Assembly: GCF_030540765.1 (NCBI RefSeq)
Contig: NZ_JAUOEL010000003.1
Coordinates: 558,001-622,000 of the forward strand
Reading direction: 5' to 3'
From: Flavivirga jejuensis
GTDB taxonomy: Bacteria; Bacteroidota; Bacteroidia; Flavobacteriales; Flavobacteriaceae
DNA length: 64,000 nt
Numbering within the stretch: position 1 is the stretch's first letter; each line of letters begins with the position of its first letter. Positions 6,280-15,342 of this stretch are shown in pieces. The notes beneath the pieces were generated by a model. That model was not told where the DNA came from and did not search any database. It saw only the letters and a program-made list of their open reading frames with translations. A program made the translations under genes and the position numbers.

Positions 6280-7011
6280 TTATTCTAATTTATGAATGAG
6301 TTTTTGGGCTTCATTATAAGCATCTGCATCTTCTGGTATCGTTTTTAATATTTTTATACAAGCACCATTATCTTTCTGTTTAAGTTTACTTAAAGCTAAA
6401 TACCATATTGCTTTATTTTTATAAACAGATGATCCTTTGGAAAGTTTACTGAACAAACTATCGGCTTCATCAAATTCGTCTAATTCTAACAGCGCAATAC
6501 CTCTATATAAGTGCAATTCTTTATTTGAATCATCTTGAACTAATAATTTCTCAAAAACAGCTTTTGCTTTAACAAAATCTTTATTATTAAAAGCATTCTC
6601 AGCGTCTTTCAAAAGGTCATCCTGAGCTCCTCTAACTGTCAAACTAATGGTCTCATAATTATTGTAATCGCTAAAAGTTGGGCTAGAGAAATTATTAAAT
6701 GTAAAGATTCCTATTAATAAAGCAACACTTGCTACCATAGCATATTGCCAAGGTTTAAAACGAACTCCTTTTTTAGCGGTTTCGTGTTTTTCAAAATAAG
6801 TATTAGAAATGGTTTTTAAATTATTCTGAAATGCGGTAGAATCTGCTTCATTTTTAAATTTATGTTCTAAAAAAGACGATAATTCTTTATACGTATTAAA
6901 CGCTTGATTAAAATCTGATTCATTTTTTAATCTTGATTCAAAAGTAATGATATCATCTTGAGACAACTCTTGAGATAAGTAGGATTCGAATAATATGTGA
7001 TTTTCTTCCAT
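6280..7011 (-). CDS. Membrane TPR protein, probable anti-sigma partner of the ECF sigma factor
   Basis: The protein has 243 residues. Residues 1-85 are a charged, helical, probably cytoplasmic domain resembling the acidic N-terminus of Bacteroidota anti-sigma factors (FESYLSQELSQDD). One membrane helix spans about 89-105 (WQYAMVASVALLIGIFTF). Residues 125-243 hold about three tetratricopeptide repeats that would lie in the periplasm (for example FNNKDFVKAKAVFEKLL and LHLYRGIALLELDEF). It starts 5 bp after the sigma gene ends, so the two are co-transcribed. The anti-sigma role is inferred from position and topology; no classical zinc anti-sigma motif is seen. Confidence 0.72.
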   Translation of the reverse strand: MEENHILFESYLSQELSQDDIITFESRLKNESDFNQAFNTYKELSSFLEHKFKNEADSTAFQNNLKTISNTYFEKHETAKKGVRFKPWQYAMVASVALLIGIFTFNNFSSPTFSDYNNYETISLTVRGAQDDLLKDAENAFNNKDFVKAKAVFEKLLVQDDSNKELHLYRGIALLELDEFDEADSLFSKLSKGSSVYKNKAIWYLALSKLKQKDNGACIKILKTIPEDADAYNEAQKLIHKLE

Positions 7012-7016
7012 GGCTA

Positions 7017-7598
7017 TTAATTATTAAGTTGGTTAAACTTTGGTGACTCTCGAACCAGCTCTGTTAATTTACCAATACATAAAGATTTCTTTTTTCTGGC
7101 ATAAGCATACGTCACACCTAATTTTTTTGCTACTTCTTCCATAGATTTTATTTTAAAAGTAGCTGTTAATAAATCTTTACAAGCGGTTCCTAATTTTTGA
7201 AACATTTCTGTAAATAAGGCTTGTTTTTCTCCAAATACAGATGTTTCAAAAGCTAATTCCTGAGCATCGTCACCTTTAGATAAAAGATCTTCACTAATTG
7301 TTACCTCTTTATTAGAAGATTTTTTTAATTCGTTTAACCATTTCCGTTTACACAGCAAAAAGAAATAGGCATCAAAAGGACAAGTAAGCTGTAATTTATT
7401 TTCGCTTGCCTGATTGTAGATCGTTAACAAAGTATCTTGTATGACATCTTGAGCCTTATCACTATCTCCACTATTCTGCTTTATATAGTTAATCACTTTA
7501 GGAACAAACTTATCATATATAGCTTGTATAATAAACGAATTGTTTTTAAGCAATCCATCTATATATTTCTGGTCTTCGTGTATTTTTTTTTCACTCAT
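7017..7598 (-). CDS. ECF-type sigma-70 family RNA polymerase sigma factor
   Basis: The 193-residue protein has only sigma regions 2 and 4. Region 2 is seen around residues 25-95 with DKAQDVIQDTLLTIYNQA, and the region 4 helix-turn-helix around residues 130-180 with SMEEVAKKLGVTYAYARKKKSLCIGKL. It is the alternative sigma factor of the locus, transcribed with the membrane TPR partner and divergently from the secreted/CHAT block. Three promoters in that block share GGGTAAC-N18-ATATAA (7644, 8244 and 9438), which is a natural guess for its target because many ECF -35 elements carry an AAC core. Confidence 0.88.
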   Translation of the reverse strand: MSEKKIHEDQKYIDGLLKNNSFIIQAIYDKFVPKVINYIKQNSGDSDKAQDVIQDTLLTIYNQASENKLQLTCPFDAYFFLLCKRKWLNELKKSSNKEVTISEDLLSKGDDAQELAFETSVFGEKQALFTEMFQKLGTACKDLLTATFKIKSMEEVAKKLGVTYAYARKKKSLCIGKLTELVRESPKFNQLNN

Positions 7599-7643
7599 TA
7601 CCCCTTGTATTTGCTACTAAAATAAAAAAACTTTGAAATAAAA

Positions 7644-7675
7644 GGGTAACAATTTTTAAATGGTTCTGATATAAG
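7644..7675 (+). promoter_or_regulatory. Putative ECF promoter 1 (GGGTAAC-N18-ATATAAG)
   Basis: GGGTAAC at 7644-7650 is followed after exactly 18 nt by ATATAAG at 7669-7675. The same two blocks with the same spacing recur at 8244 and 9438, always upstream of genes in the block next to the ECF sigma gene. The start point would be near 7682, about 48 nt before the ATG at 7730. A second GGGTGTAAC lies at 7675-7683. Confidence 0.55.
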
Positions 7676-7729
7676 GGTGTAACAGTAAAAATACTGGAAC
7701 AATTAATTAATCCATAAAAATTAAAGATC

Positions 7730-8224
7730 ATGAAAATTACAAAAAAATTTCACGAGCACTTAAACAATATTAATGATGTGCGTAAAAAATCAATTCTAAT
7801 TATTGGCACTGTAGTACTATCAATATTAAACTCTCATGCTACAGCCCTAACAGCAGATCTTAACACAATTACTATTAGTGCGAACATTACAAATGAAAAC
7901 GTACTTAAAGCTTATGACTGGAAAGTAGAAACGAATAAAAGATCTTATTCTGGAACATCTTTTTCTGTAGAAGACGCAAAACGAATGATTGCATTAACAA
8001 GTTCTGGAGACATTGTAAGAGCATCAAAAATTGAAAGTTATTTTGTTTTAAAGGCTGAAGTAAAAAACAACTCTAAAAGAAATTATTTCTGGGAGGTAGA
8101 AACTATAACAGGATTTGCAAAAGGATATGCTTCAACTGAGGCATACGCACATAAAATGATACAATTAGTTGCCTCTGGAGATGCTATTGTATCTAAAAAA
8201 ATAATCAGTCAACCACAACAATAA
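7730..8224 (+). CDS. Secreted protein with two internal repeats, unknown function
   Basis: I do not recognise the family. The 164-residue protein starts with an unusual leader (MKITKKFHEHLNNIND) ahead of a normal signal-like segment (VRKKSILIIGTVVLSILNSHATA). The same leader, as DNA and protein, opens the next gene. The mature part holds a tandem repeat of about 45 residues. Repeat 1 runs from YDWKVET through DAKRMIALTSSGDIVRASKI, and repeat 2 from YFWEVET through YAHKMIQLVASGDAIVSKKI. It lies directly downstream of ECF-like promoter 1 and divergent from the sigma gene. An alternative GTG start exists at codon 17, but leader conservation favours the ATG. Confidence 0.65.
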   Translation: MKITKKFHEHLNNINDVRKKSILIIGTVVLSILNSHATALTADLNTITISANITNENVLKAYDWKVETNKRSYSGTSFSVEDAKRMIALTSSGDIVRASKIESYFVLKAEVKNNSKRNYFWEVETITGFAKGYASTEAYAHKMIQLVASGDAIVSKKIISQPQQ

Positions 8225-8238
8225 AAAAATAATTACCA

Positions 8239-8268
8239 AAACAGGGTAACAAAACAATAACCCTGTTT
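8239..8268. terminator. Hairpin after the repeat protein gene, overlapping promoter 2
   Basis: A 9-bp stem, AAACAGGGT / ACCCTGTTT, with a 12-nt loop lies 15 bp after the stop at 8224. It may end that transcript. Its left arm contains the GGGTAAC of the next putative promoter and its right arm fills the spacer, so it could instead be an operator. Confidence 0.45.
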
Positions 8269-8276
8269 ATATAAAC
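8244..8276 (+). promoter_or_regulatory. Putative ECF promoter 2 (GGGTAAC-N18-ATATAAAC)
   Basis: GGGTAAC at 8244-8250 and ATATAAAC at 8269-8276 are 18 nt apart, as in the other two copies. The predicted start is about 20 nt before the ATG at 8306. Confidence 0.5.
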
Positions 8277-8305
8277 TTGAATAACAATTTAAAACCCAAT
8301 TAATC

Positions 8306-9334
8306 ATGAAAATTACAAAACAATTTCACACACACTCAAACAATCTAAACAACATGAGTAAAAATTTAAAACACTTTTTAGGAACCATTTTTATGTCAGC
8401 TTTATTATTAACTAGCTGTTCTAATAATGACGATAACGATGGCGATATTTTAATTCGTCCAACAGCTGAAGATTTTAATCAGTTAAAAGAAGCTGCCCTT
8501 GAAAACTTAACGCAAACATTTCAGTTTAATACAGATGACGGCTATGTAACACTAACATCTGATAAGGGTGTACAAATTAGCATTAGTAGTTCTTGTTTAA
8601 CTTTAAATGGAGACGCTGTAACTGGAACTATCGATGTAGAATTTGTTGAACTTTTTGACAAAGGTAGCATGCTTACAACAAATAAGCCAACCATGGGAAC
8701 TTTACCAAATGGCGATAAAGCATTGCTTATTTCTGGAGGAGAATTCTTTGTGAATGCGACTCAAAATGGCGCTGCTCTAGAGACCAATTGCGGATTTCAA
8801 ATGTTAATTCCTGGAGATTTAACAGGAGGCGTAGATAATGATATGACACTTTGGGAAGGTAGAGTCGATCAAGACGGAAACCTTGCATGGGCTGAAGTTG
8901 ATGAAGATGCTGGACAAGATGGTGGTATATTTGGAGAGGGAGACCAATACTATGGTTTTTTTCAATCGTTTGGATGGTCTAACGTAGATCGTTTTTATAA
9001 CGACCCACGTGAAAAAACAACTATCCTAGTTGCTGTACCTGAAGGATATGATAACACAAATAGTTCTGTTTTTATCTCTTATGATGGAGAAGATGCTGGC
9101 TTAGCCAATTTAGATACTTATGATGCTAATACAGGCTTATTTAGTGAGCATTACGGACAAATCCCTATTGGATTAGAATGTCATATTATTTTTGCTACCG
9201 AAGATGGTGACGACTGGAAATACGCTATTAAAGCTGTAACTATTGAAGAAAACGGTATTATAACATTTGTAGAAGGCGATACATCTATAGCTACAGAAGC
9301 ACAATTAACAACCATTATTAATGGTTTACCTTAA
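8306..9334 (+). CDS. Lipoprotein of unknown function in the sigma/CHAT locus
   Basis: I recognise no named domain. With the ATG at 8306 the protein has 342 residues. The leader MKITKQFHTHSNNLNN is nearly the same as that of the preceding gene, followed by a lipoprotein signal (LLLTSC, Cys38) and an Asn/Asp-rich tether. The mature part is acidic, with many beta-strand-like segments (DGYVTLTSDKGVQISISSS; GTIDVEFVEL) and looks like an extracellular all-beta protein. An internal ATG at 8354 would give a conventional lipoprotein signal. It is preceded by ECF-like promoter 2. It probably sits in the outer membrane and may act as input or output of the sigma system. Confidence 0.7.
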   Translation: MKITKQFHTHSNNLNNMSKNLKHFLGTIFMSALLLTSCSNNDDNDGDILIRPTAEDFNQLKEAALENLTQTFQFNTDDGYVTLTSDKGVQISISSSCLTLNGDAVTGTIDVEFVELFDKGSMLTTNKPTMGTLPNGDKALLISGGEFFVNATQNGAALETNCGFQMLIPGDLTGGVDNDMTLWEGRVDQDGNLAWAEVDEDAGQDGGIFGEGDQYYGFFQSFGWSNVDRFYNDPREKTTILVAVPEGYDNTNSSVFISYDGEDAGLANLDTYDANTGLFSEHYGQIPIGLECHIIFATEDGDDWKYAIKAVTIEENGIITFVEGDTSIATEAQLTTIINGLP

Positions 9335-9396
9335 AAATATCTACTCATTTTAATTGCCTGCTTATATTGGTTAGCTTCAATGGTTAACTTGCTTTT

Positions 9397-9429
9397 AAAC
9401 CAGAAACCTTGTGTTTCTGGTTTTTTTAT
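9397..9429 (+). terminator. Intrinsic terminator after the lipoprotein gene
   Basis: An 11-bp stem AAACCAGAAAC / GTTTCTGGTTT is followed by a run of T. It ends the transcript of the lipoprotein gene. Confidence 0.8.
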
Positions 9430-9437
9430 AAAAAAGG

Positions 9438-9470
9438 GGGTAACAAAATGTATGTACTATGTATATAAAG
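9438..9470 (+). promoter_or_regulatory. Putative ECF promoter 3 (GGGTAAC-N18-ATATAAAG)
   Basis: GGGTAAC at 9438-9444 is followed after 18 nt by ATATAAAG at 9463-9470. It lies just past a terminator, so it would start a new transcript near 9477 that carries a possible 33-residue peptide and the PKD, CHAT, retropepsin genes. Confidence 0.5.
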
Positions 9471-9481
9471 ATAAAAGTACT

Positions 9482-9583
9482 GTGAAAAAAACAACTCAAT
9501 TATTAGTTGCAATTATTATCATAATATTAGTATTAATTGCTAATATTATAATAACTATATCTAATTTTCATACAGCATCTTAA
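9482..9583 (+). CDS. Possible 33-residue single-helix membrane peptide
   Basis: From a GTG start at 9482 the frame encodes a short basic N-terminus (VKKTTQ) and one strongly hydrophobic helix, then ISNFHTAS and stop. The frame extends upstream through a terminator and promoter 3, so the longer versions starting at 9380 or 9452 are unlikely if that promoter is used. A peptide of the same length and layout occurs at 15677-15778 at the far end of the locus. It could also be non-coding leader. Confidence 0.3.
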   Translation: MKKTTQLLVAIIIIILVLIANIIITISNFHTAS

Positions 9584-9651
9584 GCTAGAATCATGTAAAA
9601 GTATTTTAAAGATGCACTTTTTGTATATTTAAACCTATTTAACTAACTTTC

Positions 9652-11610
9652 ATGAACAAACTATCCCTTTTTATTTGTCTCTCATTTATATGCTCATATA
9701 GTTATGCGCAACACTTGCTTGTAAACGATAGCCTTACTAGAACAGCAACTATTAAGAGTACTACAAATGGCAATGAAATAATTTTTACTCCAGAAACACC
9801 AGCTTTAAATCAAATTGCTGGTGCACCAAAAGCGTTTTATACCCATTTTTGGGAATTTGGAGACGGGCATTATAGCACCGAAGAAAAACCAAAGCATGTC
9901 TATAAAAACAAAGGTGAATACGAAGTAAAGCTATGGGCCACCAATAATTACGATACGGGTAAACCACCAACAACAAGACCTAAAAAAATTGCCATTACTT
10001 CCATGACAACCAACTATGAGGATCTCGCCACTATGGATGAAGACTTTACATTAAAACGCAATCGCGAGCCTGTCCCCGAAGAAGAAATGGTGGTTGTAAT
10101 GAGTTATAAAAACACTAAAGAATATGTTGCCAATGGTAAAATATACCTGTTCTATAACGAGCTTAAATATAAAACCAATAATTTCGAATTGCTAGAGACC
10201 AGAACCCATCATAATGAAAAGGACGTTTCAACAGATGGTTTTGCATATACGCATAACATTGATAACGAAGGCACTTATTTAGCGTCTTTAAATAATGATA
10301 TTATTAAATCGAGTGCCGTATTACAAGATTCAACAGAAAAAACAAACCTCCCTTTAACCATCGCACAATCTAAAACATATTATAAAGACTGGAGTCTTTT
10401 AGAATTCGATAACATACAACCTAACGAAGAACGCCATATTTTTTTCAGTTTAAAAACCACACCAGAAATGGTTAAAGATACCAGTGCTATTATATCGGTT
10501 AGAGGTATTTATGTGCCAGACGATAATTATGATAATCATAAAGTAAAAGACATGGAAATGGAAATTGTTACCTCACATGATCCTAACAAAATGTCATCAA
10601 ACGGTACATTTATGAATTATAGATTGGTTCGCTTTAAAACCTTAAAATATAAAATTAAATTTCAAAATAATGGCGAAGGTCCAGCAAGAACCATACGATT
10701 GGAAACCGATATTCCAGAAATGTTGGATAAATCAACCTTAAAGGTGATAGACATGTATCCTAAATGTGATATATGCCCCAAACGAGACGTGTTGTATAGT
10801 TGCCTAGACACTACATTCACAGATACACAAGCCATTTTTACCTTTAAAAATATTTACCTCCCAGGAAGTGAACAAAAAAACGTAAAAGAATACGATTCTA
10901 CGAAAGGCTTCGTAAAATATAGTATCAAATTTGCCAAAGATTTTCATAAGAAAAAAACTAAAAGTAGAACGGCCATTATTTTTGATAAAAACGATCCTAT
11001 TATGACTAACTATTCAACCACTCGTTTTTTACCTGGTATTTCCATTGGTGCTAAAGTTGGCTATAATTCGTTTAATAGTTTAAAAAATTCTGAAAGCTAT
11101 TTTTTTGGCGCAACACTTTCTCCTTTTAAATCTTATAGATGGTATTGGCAAGTAGAGTTAATGAATAATCTGCATAACTACGATAATGAAACGAATGTCG
11201 TTGATGAATTTATAGAAGAAGGAGCTCAAGGATTTCGTTTTTTGCAACGTACCACAACGGACGTTTCTTATGAGAATATTGATTGGGATATTCCCATTTT
11301 AATTCGATATAACATTAATAATTATTTAGGTTTGGGTGCAGGGATACAAAATACCATCTCTTTAAGTGAAAAAAAAGATCAACATGTTTTAATAGAACAA
11401 TTTGAAGGAGATTTTCCAGACGCTTTCGCTTTTGGCACTGAAGAAAACACGTTTAGTGAAACCAATTCTTTCACCAATTTAAGAACTGGATTGTTGTTTG
11501 AGGCTACTGCTGGTTTTGCTAGAATAGGCCCGAGTTTGGGTGCGCGTTATATAATGAATTTTGAAAACGATTTTAACTATTGGCAATTCTACGCCATTTG
11601 GAAATTCTAA
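9652..11610 (+). CDS. PKD-domain protein with C-terminal outer-membrane barrel
   Basis: The 652-residue protein has a signal peptide ending SYSYAQ. A PKD domain covers about residues 25-115 with the diagnostic FWEFGDG (66-72) and HVYKNKGEYEVKLWATN. A second region at about 330-460 resembles the conserved-repeat/DUF11-like modules of Bacteroidota surface proteins (KYKIKFQNNGEGPA ... TAIIFDKNDPIMTN). From about 465 to the end, strands and an aromatic C-terminus (YWQFYAIWKF) look like an outer-membrane beta-barrel. It therefore probably displays an adhesion or sensing domain on the envelope. It is followed 29 bp later by the CHAT gene, suggesting an operon and joint function. Confidence 0.75.
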   Translation: MNKLSLFICLSFICSYSYAQHLLVNDSLTRTATIKSTTNGNEIIFTPETPALNQIAGAPKAFYTHFWEFGDGHYSTEEKPKHVYKNKGEYEVKLWATNNYDTGKPPTTRPKKIAITSMTTNYEDLATMDEDFTLKRNREPVPEEEMVVVMSYKNTKEYVANGKIYLFYNELKYKTNNFELLETRTHHNEKDVSTDGFAYTHNIDNEGTYLASLNNDIIKSSAVLQDSTEKTNLPLTIAQSKTYYKDWSLLEFDNIQPNEERHIFFSLKTTPEMVKDTSAIISVRGIYVPDDNYDNHKVKDMEMEIVTSHDPNKMSSNGTFMNYRLVRFKTLKYKIKFQNNGEGPARTIRLETDIPEMLDKSTLKVIDMYPKCDICPKRDVLYSCLDTTFTDTQAIFTFKNIYLPGSEQKNVKEYDSTKGFVKYSIKFAKDFHKKKTKSRTAIIFDKNDPIMTNYSTTRFLPGISIGAKVGYNSFNSLKNSESYFFGATLSPFKSYRWYWQVELMNNLHNYDNETNVVDEFIEEGAQGFRFLQRTTTDVSYENIDWDIPILIRYNINNYLGLGAGIQNTISLSEKKDQHVLIEQFEGDFPDAFAFGTEENTFSETNSFTNLRTGLLFEATAGFARIGPSLGARYIMNFENDFNYWQFYAIWKF

Positions 11611-11639
11611 CCTTAAGATTCTTTTGGCAATTCATTCTT

Positions 11640-14240
11640 ATGGTAAGAAACGCATACATTATATTCTTTTTTTTAAGTTCATTTGGTTTTGCTCAAAACC
11701 TTGAAGAAGACATTTATGTAGCGACCGAGACATTTCTAAACAAGACGAATAATGCGTCACTTAAACTTTTATGCGAACAAGAATCTACGTTCAAGAAACA
11801 GGTAAAAAGCAAAAACGAACAATTAGCGCTTGTTTTTTTACAATGTCATAAAGGCTATTATTTAGAACAATACTCGCAATTAAAAGAAGCCATTAGCACT
11901 TTCGAAAATGCTTTAGATCGTTTTAAGATAAATGAACTTTCGAAACTTTCCGATTTCGATATTATTGAAAACTGCCTGAAACCTCTTGGGAATTTATATA
12001 CTAAAACAGGAGATTATACCAATGCCGTTAATACAATAAAACGATACATCCATTTTGCTAAAAAGAGTAAGAACTTAAAACATCAAATAGGTGGTTTAAT
12101 TAATCTTATCACACTCTACAAAACCCTTGGAGAGCATAAAACGGTAATAAAACTTTGTGACGATGCCTTAAAGCTAAAACAACTTAAACCCACACAAAAA
12201 GAGAAATTCTTAAACGCAAAAATATTTAGTTTGGTAATTTTAGAACAATTTGATAATGCTAAAATTGCAAATAACAATCCGCACATTCTTTCTAAATTCA
12301 ATATACTTAATAACAGCTATCTTATCGAATTACAAAAAGGTAATTATCAAGAGGCACAAATTGCACATAACAAAGCAAAGAAGATACTCCATGCAAAAAA
12401 TCATTTATCGTCTAGATATTTAGCAAAATTTTATCTAGAAGAGGTTCAACTCAATAAACTATTAAACCATTTAGACGACGCTAAAAACAGTGCTAATTTA
12501 GCTCTCAAAATGTTATTGCCAAATATAAGTTCTATTGATCTTCTTAATAAAAACAACTTATATGCCGAAAACACATTTATAGATATTTTCGACCTGTACG
12601 CTACTCTTCAAGAAGATCCTAAATTGGCACTTAATTATTATGATCTAAGTTTTTATGTATCCCGATTATTAGAAAACAATTGGACCTCGCAAGAAAACAA
12701 AATATCAAATCAGACAGCAAACAGAATTCGCAGCGAAAAATGTATAGATATTATCTTTAATGCCTACCAAAACACTAAAAATGACACACTCTTATTCACC
12801 GCTTTTAAATATGCAGAACTTAATAAATCGGGGATATTAAAAGAACGATTTATAAAAAAAACACTTTTACATAAGCACCCTAACGATAGCTTACTACTTA
12901 AAGAAGCGAATCTACTTAAAGAACAAGAAAAAATAACCAACCTTTTAATAAATGAACAATTAGGCAAATCTCAAGCATCAATAATTACAGCTTTGAGCTC
13001 CGATCTAAATACTATAAGTATTAAATTAAAAATACTTAAAGAAACTATAAATAAAAAATATCCCGAATTAGAAGACCGTATTTTTTTGGTTGATGAGATC
13101 CAAAATAAACTATTGGAGGAAAATGCTGTTTTGGTTGAATACTTTTATGGTAAAAAAAACATCTATCAATTTATAATTAATAATGAAGGCATGCATCTTA
13201 ACAAAATCAATTTAGATGCCTCTACAAAAAAACACATCACAGATTTTATTCATTTATTTGATGCCGCTTCCATAATAAATAATGACATAGACAAATTTAC
13301 AACCGCTGCTTTTACGCTTTATAACATCTTGGAGCTCACAAAAACAGCAACCTTCAAAAACGCTATTATTATTCCAGATGGGATATTAAATTTTATCCCA
13401 TTTGAAGCTTTGCTTACTTCTAAAACCAATACAACAAACTTTTCAAAAATGCCATTTGTTGTAAAAAAACAGCATATCGTTTACAATACAAGTACCGCAT
13501 TTTATCTAAAAAAAGAAGTAAAAAACAAAGCAAACAATCTTCTTGGAATCTTTCCTGTGTTTGAAAATACAAAAAACAGTTTAACATATTCTATTAATGA
13601 AGCAAACGCTATAAAAGAAGAAATGCATTCCGATCTTTTTTTAAAGGAAAAAGCAACAAAAAGAGCCTTCATTAAGAATAGTTCAAATTATAGTATTTTA
13701 CATCTATCTACCCATGCCAATAGTGGCAATATTTCAACCCCTGCAAATATCGAATTTTATGGAGACACCATGTTTCTAAACGAGTTATACAGTCTTAACT
13801 TAAATACAGATCTTGTCGTTTTAAGCGCTTGTGAAACTGGCATTGGGAAGTTATATAAAGGAGAAGGCGCTATGAGTATAGCTCGTGGCTTTCAATATGC
13901 TGGGGCACAAAACGTATTATTTTCTTTATGGCAGATAAACGATTTATCTACGTCTCAAATCATGCAATCCTTTTATAAAAATTATAGCGACAATCAATCT
14001 GCTTATATTTCAAACCATCAGTCTAAATTAGATTATTTAAAAAATGAAGCCGTTAGCAACATAAAAAAGTCTCCTTATTATTGGAGCGCATTTGTTTATT
14101 ATGGTGAATTAACAAAGCCAACTAATAGCAGCAAATTAATTTATGCCCTCATCGGCTTATTTATTTTACTTATTATATTACTTTTATTGTTGAAAACCAA
14201 AAGGGCTTATGGAAAAAACACTACAGGAATTCCTTCATGA
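11640..14240 (+). CDS. TPR-CHAT caspase-like protease, periplasmic and membrane-anchored
   Basis: The start at 11640 is chosen because it gives a clean signal peptide (MVRNAYIIFFFLSSFGFAQ); the frame is open 60 bp further up into the previous gene. Of 866 residues, about 20-480 are helical repeats of TPR type (ALDRFKINELSKLSDFD; NLYTKTGDYTNAVNTIKRY). The CHAT peptidase domain covers about 560-825, with catalytic His692 in HLSTHA and Cys731 in SACETG, then GEGAMSIARGFQYAGAQNVL. Residues 833-851 are one membrane helix with a basic tail (KTKRAYGK), so the protease should face the periplasm. CHAT proteins are clan CD cysteine peptidases, often in signalling or conflict systems. It overlaps the retropepsin gene by 32 bp. 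Confidence 0.88.
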   Translation: MVRNAYIIFFFLSSFGFAQNLEEDIYVATETFLNKTNNASLKLLCEQESTFKKQVKSKNEQLALVFLQCHKGYYLEQYSQLKEAISTFENALDRFKINELSKLSDFDIIENCLKPLGNLYTKTGDYTNAVNTIKRYIHFAKKSKNLKHQIGGLINLITLYKTLGEHKTVIKLCDDALKLKQLKPTQKEKFLNAKIFSLVILEQFDNAKIANNNPHILSKFNILNNSYLIELQKGNYQEAQIAHNKAKKILHAKNHLSSRYLAKFYLEEVQLNKLLNHLDDAKNSANLALKMLLPNISSIDLLNKNNLYAENTFIDIFDLYATLQEDPKLALNYYDLSFYVSRLLENNWTSQENKISNQTANRIRSEKCIDIIFNAYQNTKNDTLLFTAFKYAELNKSGILKERFIKKTLLHKHPNDSLLLKEANLLKEQEKITNLLINEQLGKSQASIITALSSDLNTISIKLKILKETINKKYPELEDRIFLVDEIQNKLLEENAVLVEYFYGKKNIYQFIINNEGMHLNKINLDASTKKHITDFIHLFDAASIINNDIDKFTTAAFTLYNILELTKTATFKNAIIIPDGILNFIPFEALLTSKTNTTNFSKMPFVVKKQHIVYNTSTAFYLKKEVKNKANNLLGIFPVFENTKNSLTYSINEANAIKEEMHSDLFLKEKATKRAFIKNSSNYSILHLSTHANSGNISTPANIEFYGDTMFLNELYSLNLNTDLVVLSACETGIGKLYKGEGAMSIARGFQYAGAQNVLFSLWQINDLSTSQIMQSFYKNYSDNQSAYISNHQSKLDYLKNEAVSNIKKSPYYWSAFVYYGELTKPTNSSKLIYALIGLFILLIILLLLLKTKRAYGKNTTGIPS

Positions 14241-14661
14241 AAAAAGATATACTAAAGTAAAATTACACCTTACTAAAACAAACCACTTTGAAATAAAAGC
14301 GACTATAAATGGCCGCAAAGGATTATTTATTTTAGATACTGGCGCATCAAGTTCTTGTGTTGGTTTTGAAGCCATTGAGACTTTTAACCTTAAAGCTGAA
14401 GACTCTATTATTAAGGCTGCAGGTGCAGGAGCTACCGATATGGAGACCAAAATGTCTAAAAAAAACAAAGTGAAAATCGGAAAATGGAAACACAATAAAG
14501 TTGTTTTAGTTTTATTTAACCTCGCTCATGTAAATACAGCTTTAATAAATCATAATTCGAAGCCCGTAGACGGAATTATTGGTGCTGATATCTTAAAAAA
14601 AGCGAAAGCCATTATAGATTATGAAAAGAAATATCTATATTTAAAACTTAAACATATTTAA
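14209..14661 (+). CDS. Retropepsin-like aspartic protease
   Basis: The 150-residue protein has one retropepsin domain. The active-site triad is in ILDTGASSS near residue 42, and the flap/second hydrophobic-Gly motif is GIIGADILKKA near residue 122. Retropepsins act as dimers. No signal peptide is seen, so it should be cytosolic, although it could be carried to the membrane by a partner. The ATG lies 32 bp inside the end of the CHAT gene, which implies translational coupling. A caspase-like and an aspartyl protease encoded by overlapping genes is the striking feature of the locus. Confidence 0.85.
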   Translation: MEKTLQEFLHEKRYTKVKLHLTKTNHFEIKATINGRKGLFILDTGASSSCVGFEAIETFNLKAEDSIIKAAGAGATDMETKMSKKNKVKIGKWKHNKVVLVLFNLAHVNTALINHNSKPVDGIIGADILKKAKAIIDYEKKYLYLKLKHI

Positions 14662-14709
14662 ACAAATCTAAATATTTTTAATTAATAGCTTTTAATTCTC
14701 CTCTAATTA

Positions 14710-15342
14710 ATGAATACCTCAATAGTAATTGCTGACGACCATCCGCTAATGTTAAGAGGCCTCACTGATTTTTTGACTTCGAAAGGGTACAATATCATAG
14801 GTAGTGCCCAAGATGGAAATACCGCATATAATCTAATAGTAAAACTAAAACCTGAAATTGCCATTCTTGATATAAGAATGCCGCATAAAACTGGGTTAGA
14901 AATAGCAGAAGCTTGTAAAAAAAATAATTTAATCACCAAAGTTATCCTTATCACTTTTGATAAAGAAGAAGAGCTCTATGATAAAGCTAAGGAGTTTAAT
15001 GTTTTTGGATATATTTTAAAAGAGTTTGCTATTGAAGAAATTGAAACATGTATTAAACACGTTATAGATAACACGCCATACTTTAGCGAAGAAATAGCAT
15101 CTTATTTAAACTCCAGTAATTTAGAACAAAAACCTGATGCATTAGATTTACTAACCAAATCTGAACTAAAAATAGTGAAACTCATTTCTGAAAACAAAAC
15201 GAGTCATGATATTGCTAAAGAGCTTTCAATATCAGTTCGCACAGTAGATAAACACAGAAGTAATATCGTTGCCAAATTAAATTTGGATAACAAACCTACA
15301 TCACTTTCAATTTGGGCCAATTTAAATAAAAAATATTTATAA
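14710..15342 (+). CDS. NarL/LuxR-family response regulator
   Basis: The 210-residue protein has a receiver domain (about 1-120) with the acidic pocket IADDHP, phospho-acceptor Asp54 (AILDIRMP) and Lys in LKEFAI. The C-terminal LuxR-type helix-turn-helix is at about 145-205 (LTKSELKIVKLISENKTSHDIAKELSISVRTVDKHRSNI). No histidine kinase is in the window, so its input comes from elsewhere. It starts 48 bp after the retropepsin gene. Two palindromes AAATACG-N8-CGTATTT immediately downstream are placed at about -44 of two tandem predicted small RNA promoters and are candidate binding sites. Confidence 0.9.
   Translation: MNTSIVIADDHPLMLRGLTDFLTSKGYNIIGSAQDGNTAYNLIVKLKPEIAILDIRMPHKTGLEIAEACKKNNLITKVILITFDKEEELYDKAKEFNVFGYILKEFAIEEIETCIKHVIDNTPYFSEEIASYLNSSNLEQKPDALDLLTKSELKIVKLISENKTSHDIAKELSISVRTVDKHRSNIVAKLNLDNKPTSLSIWANLNKKYL

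Follow-up and report, generated by a model that had tools for sequence, protein, structure and literature searches.

A candidate sigma factor switch gated by a periplasmic CHAT protease in Flavivirga jejuensis

What controls an extracytoplasmic function (ECF) sigma factor whose gene lies beside that of a membrane protein with tetratricopeptide repeats (TPRs) and faces a block that ends in a CHAT protease? The question is raised by a locus in the 6.0 Mb genome of Flavivirga jejuensis (assembly GCF_030540765.1), within a stretch of 64,000 nucleotides of contig NZ_JAUOEL010000003.1 (positions 558,001 to 622,000), called the window below. The original prediction, made from this stretch alone, had the CHAT protein and a neighboring retropepsin jointly freeing the sigma factor. 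We consider it likely that the locus encodes a positive-feedback switch for envelope signaling, made of the ECF sigma factor, a membrane anti-sigma factor and a periplasmic CHAT protease. All the genes claimed for positions 6280..15342 are present in the open reading frame listing and in profile searches, and the protease retains its His and Cys, just as predicted. The sigma and TPR genes, on the minus strand, face a plus-strand block of four genes:

6280..7011, minus strand: TPR protein, membrane anti-sigma-like (TPR_19, 29.7 bits, cut-off 25)
7017..7598, minus strand: ECF sigma factor (TIGR02937, 47.8 bits, cut-off 42.9; Sigma70_r2 also above its cut-off)
7730..8224, plus strand: small secreted protein, predicted by eye, with no family match above cut-off
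8306..9334, plus strand: lipoprotein, predicted by eye, with no family match above cut-off
9652..11610, plus strand: protein with PKD, DUF7619 and DUF7849 profile matches, here the barrel protein
11640..14240, plus strand: TPR-CHAT protease (PF12770, 145.1 bits, cut-off 24)

Which of these genes belong together? Two surveys bear on this: one of 120 genomes of the family, with 15 full module loci (the window plus L031-L044; L045 serves as a sixteenth for promoters), and one of named loci, the best 80 of 529 matches to the barrel protein, mostly from Flavivirga species among the nearest, with 12 of the 80 set aside because contig ends cut them. A full CHAT orthologue occurs in 15/120 family genomes (fragments in G051, G058 and G089), and sigma and TPR genes accompany it in all 15; the same three genes are present in 68/68 fully spanned named loci found through the barrel. 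Full-length relatives of the barrel adjoin CHAT genes or their fragments (17 of the 120 family genomes). This association is far beyond chance: the sigma factor, the TPR protein, the barrel protein and the TPR-CHAT protein form one module, and the original grouping of sigma, TPR and CHAT stands.

The sigma factor very probably controls the block, as was first proposed, to judge from a shared motif that it may recognize. The region between sigma and block contains GGGTAACAA followed by TTGATATAAGG, or near copies, in all 16 module loci (window, L031-L045). A motif search of the window gives three candidate promoters:

7645..7674, plus strand: promoter P1, GGTAACA-N16-GATATAA, before the first block gene (secreted protein)
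8245..8274, plus strand: promoter P2, GGTAACA-N16-TATATAA, before the lipoprotein gene
9439..9468, plus strand: promoter P3, a motif of the same kind, before the barrel-CHAT unit

With 12-20 bases allowed between GGTAACA and GATAT.A, sites are found in 15 of the 16 loci, all of them with a spacer of exactly 16; L045 departs from the pattern by one base. Across 34 genomes, the exact motif is found in 15/15 with the module and 0/19 without it; 19 of 26 matches lie in the module and seven outside, about the level of a reversed-pattern control (nine matches over the same genomes). In the whole F. jejuensis genome, GGTAACA-N16-KATATAA occurs at three sites only (7645, 8245 and 9439). A plus-strand site lies between sigma and barrel in 75 of the 77 named loci that have the sigma gene: these loci hold 156 such sites, none elsewhere on the plus strand and five on the other strand. 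In L120, L122, L124, L125 and L185, a minus-strand motif sits inside the sigma gene and may reflect coding-sequence chance.

How would such a sigma factor be held at rest? The TPR gene adjoins the sigma gene in module loci and encodes a protein with one hydrophobic helix (residues 87-107); its AlphaFold2 model (predicted local distance difference test, pLDDT, 89; predicted template-modelling score, pTM, 0.59) runs from four N-terminal helices through the transmembrane (TM) helix and an extended linker into the TPRs. The predicted parts are as follows:

TPR protein, encoded on the minus strand: cytosolic four-helix N-terminus, residues 2-75; TM helix, 87-107; periplasmic linker, 108-130; TPR domain, 131-242
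6622..6690, minus strand: periplasmic linker 108-130 with SLTVRG, by alignment
6631-6633, minus strand: codon of Arg127, the proposed cleavage (substrate P1) residue, by alignment and covariation

A cytosolic domain, a TM helix and an outside domain fit the topology of membrane anti-sigma factors, and on this predicted layout we call the protein anti-sigma-like. The linker Arg is near-invariant (84/90 orthologue rows as aligned, with five more shifted by one column).

The TPR-CHAT protein, in turn, is predicted to be a periplasmic cysteine protease of the separase/caspase type, anchored in the inner membrane. Translation from ATG 11640 gives a signal-peptide-like N-terminus (judged by eye, in relatives too), a better start than TTG 11580. 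The AlphaFold2 model (pLDDT 88, pTM 0.82) shows an N-terminal helix, a helical TPR-like region, the CHAT domain and a C-terminal hydrophobic helix, predicted to span the membrane (832-858). The catalytic His and Cys, from which proteolysis is surmised, are kept in 117/117 aligned CHAT proteins and in 86/86 CHATs paired with a TPR protein. Csx29 is the best fold match of the model; PDB sequence searches gave only TPR chains for the whole protein (E 0.17 or worse), TPR chains among the matches listed for its profile, and no match for one CHAT domain. Three residues matter below:

13599-13601, plus strand: codon of Glu654, proposed S1-pocket residue reading the partner's Arg127, by alignment and covariation
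13713-13715, plus strand: catalytic H692, by alignment
13830-13832, plus strand: catalytic C731, by alignment

Does this protease cut its neighbor? In the model, Glu654 stands at the start of the helix that follows the first core strand, 38 residues ahead of His692. Clan CD enzymes carry an S1 residue there: Arg179 in caspase-1, Asp365 in MALT1 and Asp163 in RgpB. Position 654 is Glu in 79/79 CHAT orthologues and in 24/24 paralogues with an Arg linker; some paralogues have PGLPTTM(S/G) in place of the linker Arg, and in 9/9 of those with a PGLPTTM linker it is Leu, Val or Ile. We drew 86 pairs from 120 loci (L068-L087 and L194-L293), matching each TPR protein with the nearest CHAT and keeping only loci with both a TPR frame of up to 330 residues and a CHAT that scored above 100 bits; L274-L293, partly chosen from weak matches, were kept out of co-occurrence counts. 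Arg in the linker and an acid at 654 occur together in 49 pairs, Arg only in one, acid only in four and neither in 32. The lone Arg-only pair is an alignment shift (L256); three of the acid-only pairs have Lys, and the fourth, L076, has Arg two residues off. L196 pairs Gln with Lys. In an unbiased scan, the top-ranking of 1560 tests for Arg127 is an acid at 654, and the top-ranking of 1007 tests for an acid at 654 is Arg127, with p-values inflated by kinship among the sequences. On the tree, the acid changes eight times and Arg ten (eight after correction of two shifted rows). A model of dependent evolution is preferred over independent evolution (likelihood ratio, LR, 34.5, p 5.9e-7, best tree), and in a comparison run 654 comes first of 16 columns (LR 35.8, against at most 16.4 for the 15 other top columns). 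From this covariation, Arg127 is probably read at substrate position P1 by Glu654 in S1, with CHAT cutting the periplasmic linker of the TPR protein; the cut into the periplasmic part that was first proposed fits this pattern well.

What the computation shows is the module, a motif confined to the block, an active site left intact, a predicted topology and covariation of linker and pocket; from these we infer a cycle comprising sigma binding, an input signal, cleavage, later release steps and promoter use. In the resting state, the TPR protein would hold the ECF sigma factor through its cytosolic N-terminus. The barrel protein and the lipoprotein of the block would probably inform CHAT, at a guess. 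CHAT would then cleave the short linker that joins the TM helix to the TPR domain, cutting after Arg127, which Glu654 would read in S1; release of sigma would then fall to a site-2 protease and cytosolic proteases. Once free, sigma would transcribe the block from its three promoters, and the added CHAT, barrel and secreted proteins would close a positive-feedback loop. The F. jejuensis genome encodes one M50 protein (PF02163 match), a family also present in 14/14 control genomes.

Is this a peculiarity of one module? For family-wide counts we used 83 of 87 CHAT places (four weak ones dropped), all 71 TPR places, and the stronger sigma places (to about E 2e-6) plus the paralogue in the own genome. 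Sigma and TPR relatives lie within 10 kb of 56/83 CHAT places, and both accompany 41 of the 66 that are not orthologues. Forty paralogous loci show divergent, convergent and collinear orders and contain sigma in 40 cases (one broken) and CHAT in 38, rates that are not unbiased because the loci were picked partly for co-occurrence; the counts over the 83 CHAT places and over the class-wide loci below are the better guide. The F. jejuensis genome itself holds a second triad (G000:C31, L068). Class-wide, the TPR protein has matches in 202/295 genomes, many in the TPR part only; among 40 loci with strong, mostly full-length matches, sigma is adjacent in 39 and CHAT present in 25, and among 20 further loci in 19 and 14, respectively. 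In 13/13 hand-picked paralogous divergent loci, GGGTAA occurs on the cargo strand (0.69 expected under letter shuffling); a gapped-pair search for a shared -10 element in paralogous promoters found none.

What the switch would drive seems to vary. A predicted S8 subtilase lies between sigma and CHAT in L068 (6892-8190), L080 (9981-11255) and L085 (9747-11006); therefore, the switch would have different cargo at different loci. We lean, with reservations, toward a large and so far unnamed family of such ECF sigma / membrane TPR anti-sigma / periplasmic CHAT envelope switches in Bacteroidota, in which linker and S1 pocket co-evolve as a specificity code that keeps several switches of one cell apart (Arg matched by Glu; linkers of the PGLPxxM type matched by a pocket that is hydrophobic or small), and in which the cargo is interchangeable, as read here an outer-membrane barrel, subtilases or peptide export. 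In L070, the genes after CHAT (9545-13358) encode a VKOR/thioredoxin/C39-like protein and an ABC transporter with a C39 peptidase; perhaps a disulfide-bonded peptide is exported there under the switch. L278 has two tandem CHAT genes of ~1,090 residues each behind one sigma-TPR pair (7637-14199). As a sole marker of the switch the barrel was tried and rejected, given paralogous triads in genomes and loci that have no barrel.

Several points weigh against these readings. The entire switch model is built on comparative data. The KATATAA form was widened after two weaker sites had been seen in the block, so that its lack of matches outside the block is the one independent result. The N-terminal domain of the TPR protein matches no anti-sigma family above cut-off in profile searches, and searches of solved structures matched just the TPR part, not this domain (PDB profile search and Foldseek giving TPR matches only, among the matches listed). 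That residue 654 is the S1 site is likely on secondary structure and on known clan CD structures. L219 and L232 combine a Lys linker with a hydrophobic Met or Val at 654, contrary to the charge rule, and the Lys-linker pair L248 has a gap there. A strict test of independent pairs on well-supported branches leaves three pairs, ~2.6 of them concordant and none contrary (p 0.25). The conserved linker could be a docking peptide instead. For the wider family, CHAT was not found within ~8 kb on each side in 15/40 and 6/20 of the class-wide loci.

Would the covariation look any different if the linker were never cut? As a pseudo-substrate, the linker could let the TPR protein inhibit CHAT while staying intact; once freed, CHAT would hit another target and sigma would report its state. 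We regard this as unlikely: it predicts the same Arg/Glu covariation but leaves unexplained why the membrane partner of sigma should carry the linker. Moreover, in PMC10028731 Csx29 does cut an anti-sigma-like protein, Csx30, and the authors model this cut as relieving sigma inhibition.

The position of CHAT behind a sigma-type promoter motif is also what one would expect if the protease were just one more product of the sigma regulon, serving suicide or defense, with another protease starting the response. This is improbable, given the covariation of linker and pocket, and because the triad persists as gene order changes among paralogous loci. Nor does the defense role suggested in the original prediction find support: with six of the eight proteins of the region scanned, sigma, TPR protein, lipoprotein and barrel match no defense model, CHAT matches a single TPR model (E 0.0015), and the retropepsin matches the candidate PDC-M08B.

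If the module ends with CHAT, why do two more genes so often follow it?

14209..14661, plus strand: retropepsin (Asp_protease_2, 47.8 bits), a backbone neighbor outside the module
14710..15342, plus strand: NarL-type response regulator (profile matches), likewise a backbone neighbor outside the module

The original prediction counted both in and had the anti-sigma protein cut twice, in its periplasmic part by CHAT and in its cytosolic part by the retropepsin. The retropepsin does lie downstream of CHAT in 61/68 fully spanned named loci, and because its gene overlaps that of CHAT by 32 bases in the window, read-through from promoter P3 is possible. However, a retropepsin match occurs in 114/120 family genomes, far beyond the spread of CHAT. 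In 20/20 loci without CHAT, chosen mostly from closer retropepsin relatives (one from G074, the other 19 from genomes lacking a CHAT orthologue), tatD directly adjoins the retropepsin and odhB-sucA lies beyond; the NarL-type regulator is beside the retropepsin in 17 of the 20. The retropepsin and tatD flank the stretch from sigma to CHAT in 13/15 full module loci; in G094 and G074 this stretch lies elsewhere, and G074 still has its retropepsin in the backbone. No retropepsin lies near the module in these two genomes or in seven of the 68 named loci (five Arenibacter, Galbibacter and a Urechidicola metagenome-assembled genome), in which the module is likewise placed elsewhere. Because both genes are present without CHAT, and the module also lives apart from both, they are neighbors rather than members, tied to the module by place and not as a set. 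Searching for CHAT, retropepsin, sigma and TPR as a conserved set thus upheld the last two with CHAT and separated the retropepsin; since separate occurrence of the sigma pair and the CHAT/retropepsin genes was named in advance as the refuting finding, the idea of two proteases falls by that test and is very improbable.

The tatD-retropepsin spot also records what look like losses of the module: in G051 (L046) only terminal pieces of TPR and CHAT are left there, and in G003 (L194) a complete TPR gene and a broken sigma gene. The retropepsin has no clear signal or TM segment and reaches 90% identity between genera; so conserved a protein merits a study of its own.

Very improbable, too, is a role for the TPR protein as a positive adaptor of sigma instead of an anti-sigma factor: no curated anti-sigma model scores above cut-off for it, but membrane anti-sigma factors typically have just this arrangement of a cytosolic helical N-terminus, one TM helix and a gene beside sigma.

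How does the proposed switch compare with known systems? The closest are the Type III-E Craspase (Csx29/Csx30/CASP-sigma) and Myxococcus DdvA. PMC10028731 describes a TPR-CHAT protease (Csx29), an ECF-like CASP-sigma, a sigma-inhibiting substrate (Csx30), whose cleavage relieves the inhibition in the authors' model, and three sigma motifs within the Craspase locus; the present locus resembles it in its TPR-CHAT protein, ECF sigma factor, proposed inhibitor substrate and three motifs of its own. Unlike Csx29, whose trigger is target RNA in complex with Cas7-11, the present CHAT has a signal-peptide-like start and a TM anchor and would cut a membrane protein in the periplasm, and none of the eight proteins of the region matches a Cas family above cut-off (CRISPR arrays were not searched). 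DdvA of Myxococcus xanthus (PDB 8ROT, 8RW5), the anti-sigma factor of the ECF sigma factor DdvS, unites anti-sigma and TPR-CHAT parts in one polypeptide; here, the two parts are distinct proteins whose linker and pocket covary, accompanied by a barrel partner. The anti-sigma-like protein and CHAT have separate genes in the window and in all 68 fully spanned named loci, so the arrangement is not of the DdvA type. In the sigma-E pathway of RseA, DegS and RseP, the membrane anti-sigma factor is cut first periplasmically and then within the membrane. The proposed order of cuts is alike, but site-1 cleavage there is the work of a serine protease with a different fold, and the sigma-E regulon is global, whereas the motif here is local. 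Eukaryotic separase differs in substrate, place and regulation. Searches of open-licence PMC papers turned up no description of the module.

If the switch works as proposed, the separase/Craspase principle, a TPR-CHAT protease cutting a sigma inhibitor, extends from CRISPR to ordinary envelope signaling across a whole class; it would also hint at how DdvA works and predict many orthogonal, protease-gated sigma circuits. Cutting would hinge on one linker Arg and one pocket Glu, which makes the proposal sharply and cheaply testable.

The PKD/DUF7619/DUF7849 protein probably forms a barrel in the outer membrane, its N-terminal part lying in the periplasm. The 7730..8224 product has two copies of a ~45-residue repeat (by eye), and its gene is not in every module locus; the lipoprotein gene (8306..9334) is duplicated in some relatives. 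The first residues of these two products are alike (MKITK.FH.H, seen by eye), and their upstream region looks as if it had been duplicated together with the promoter.

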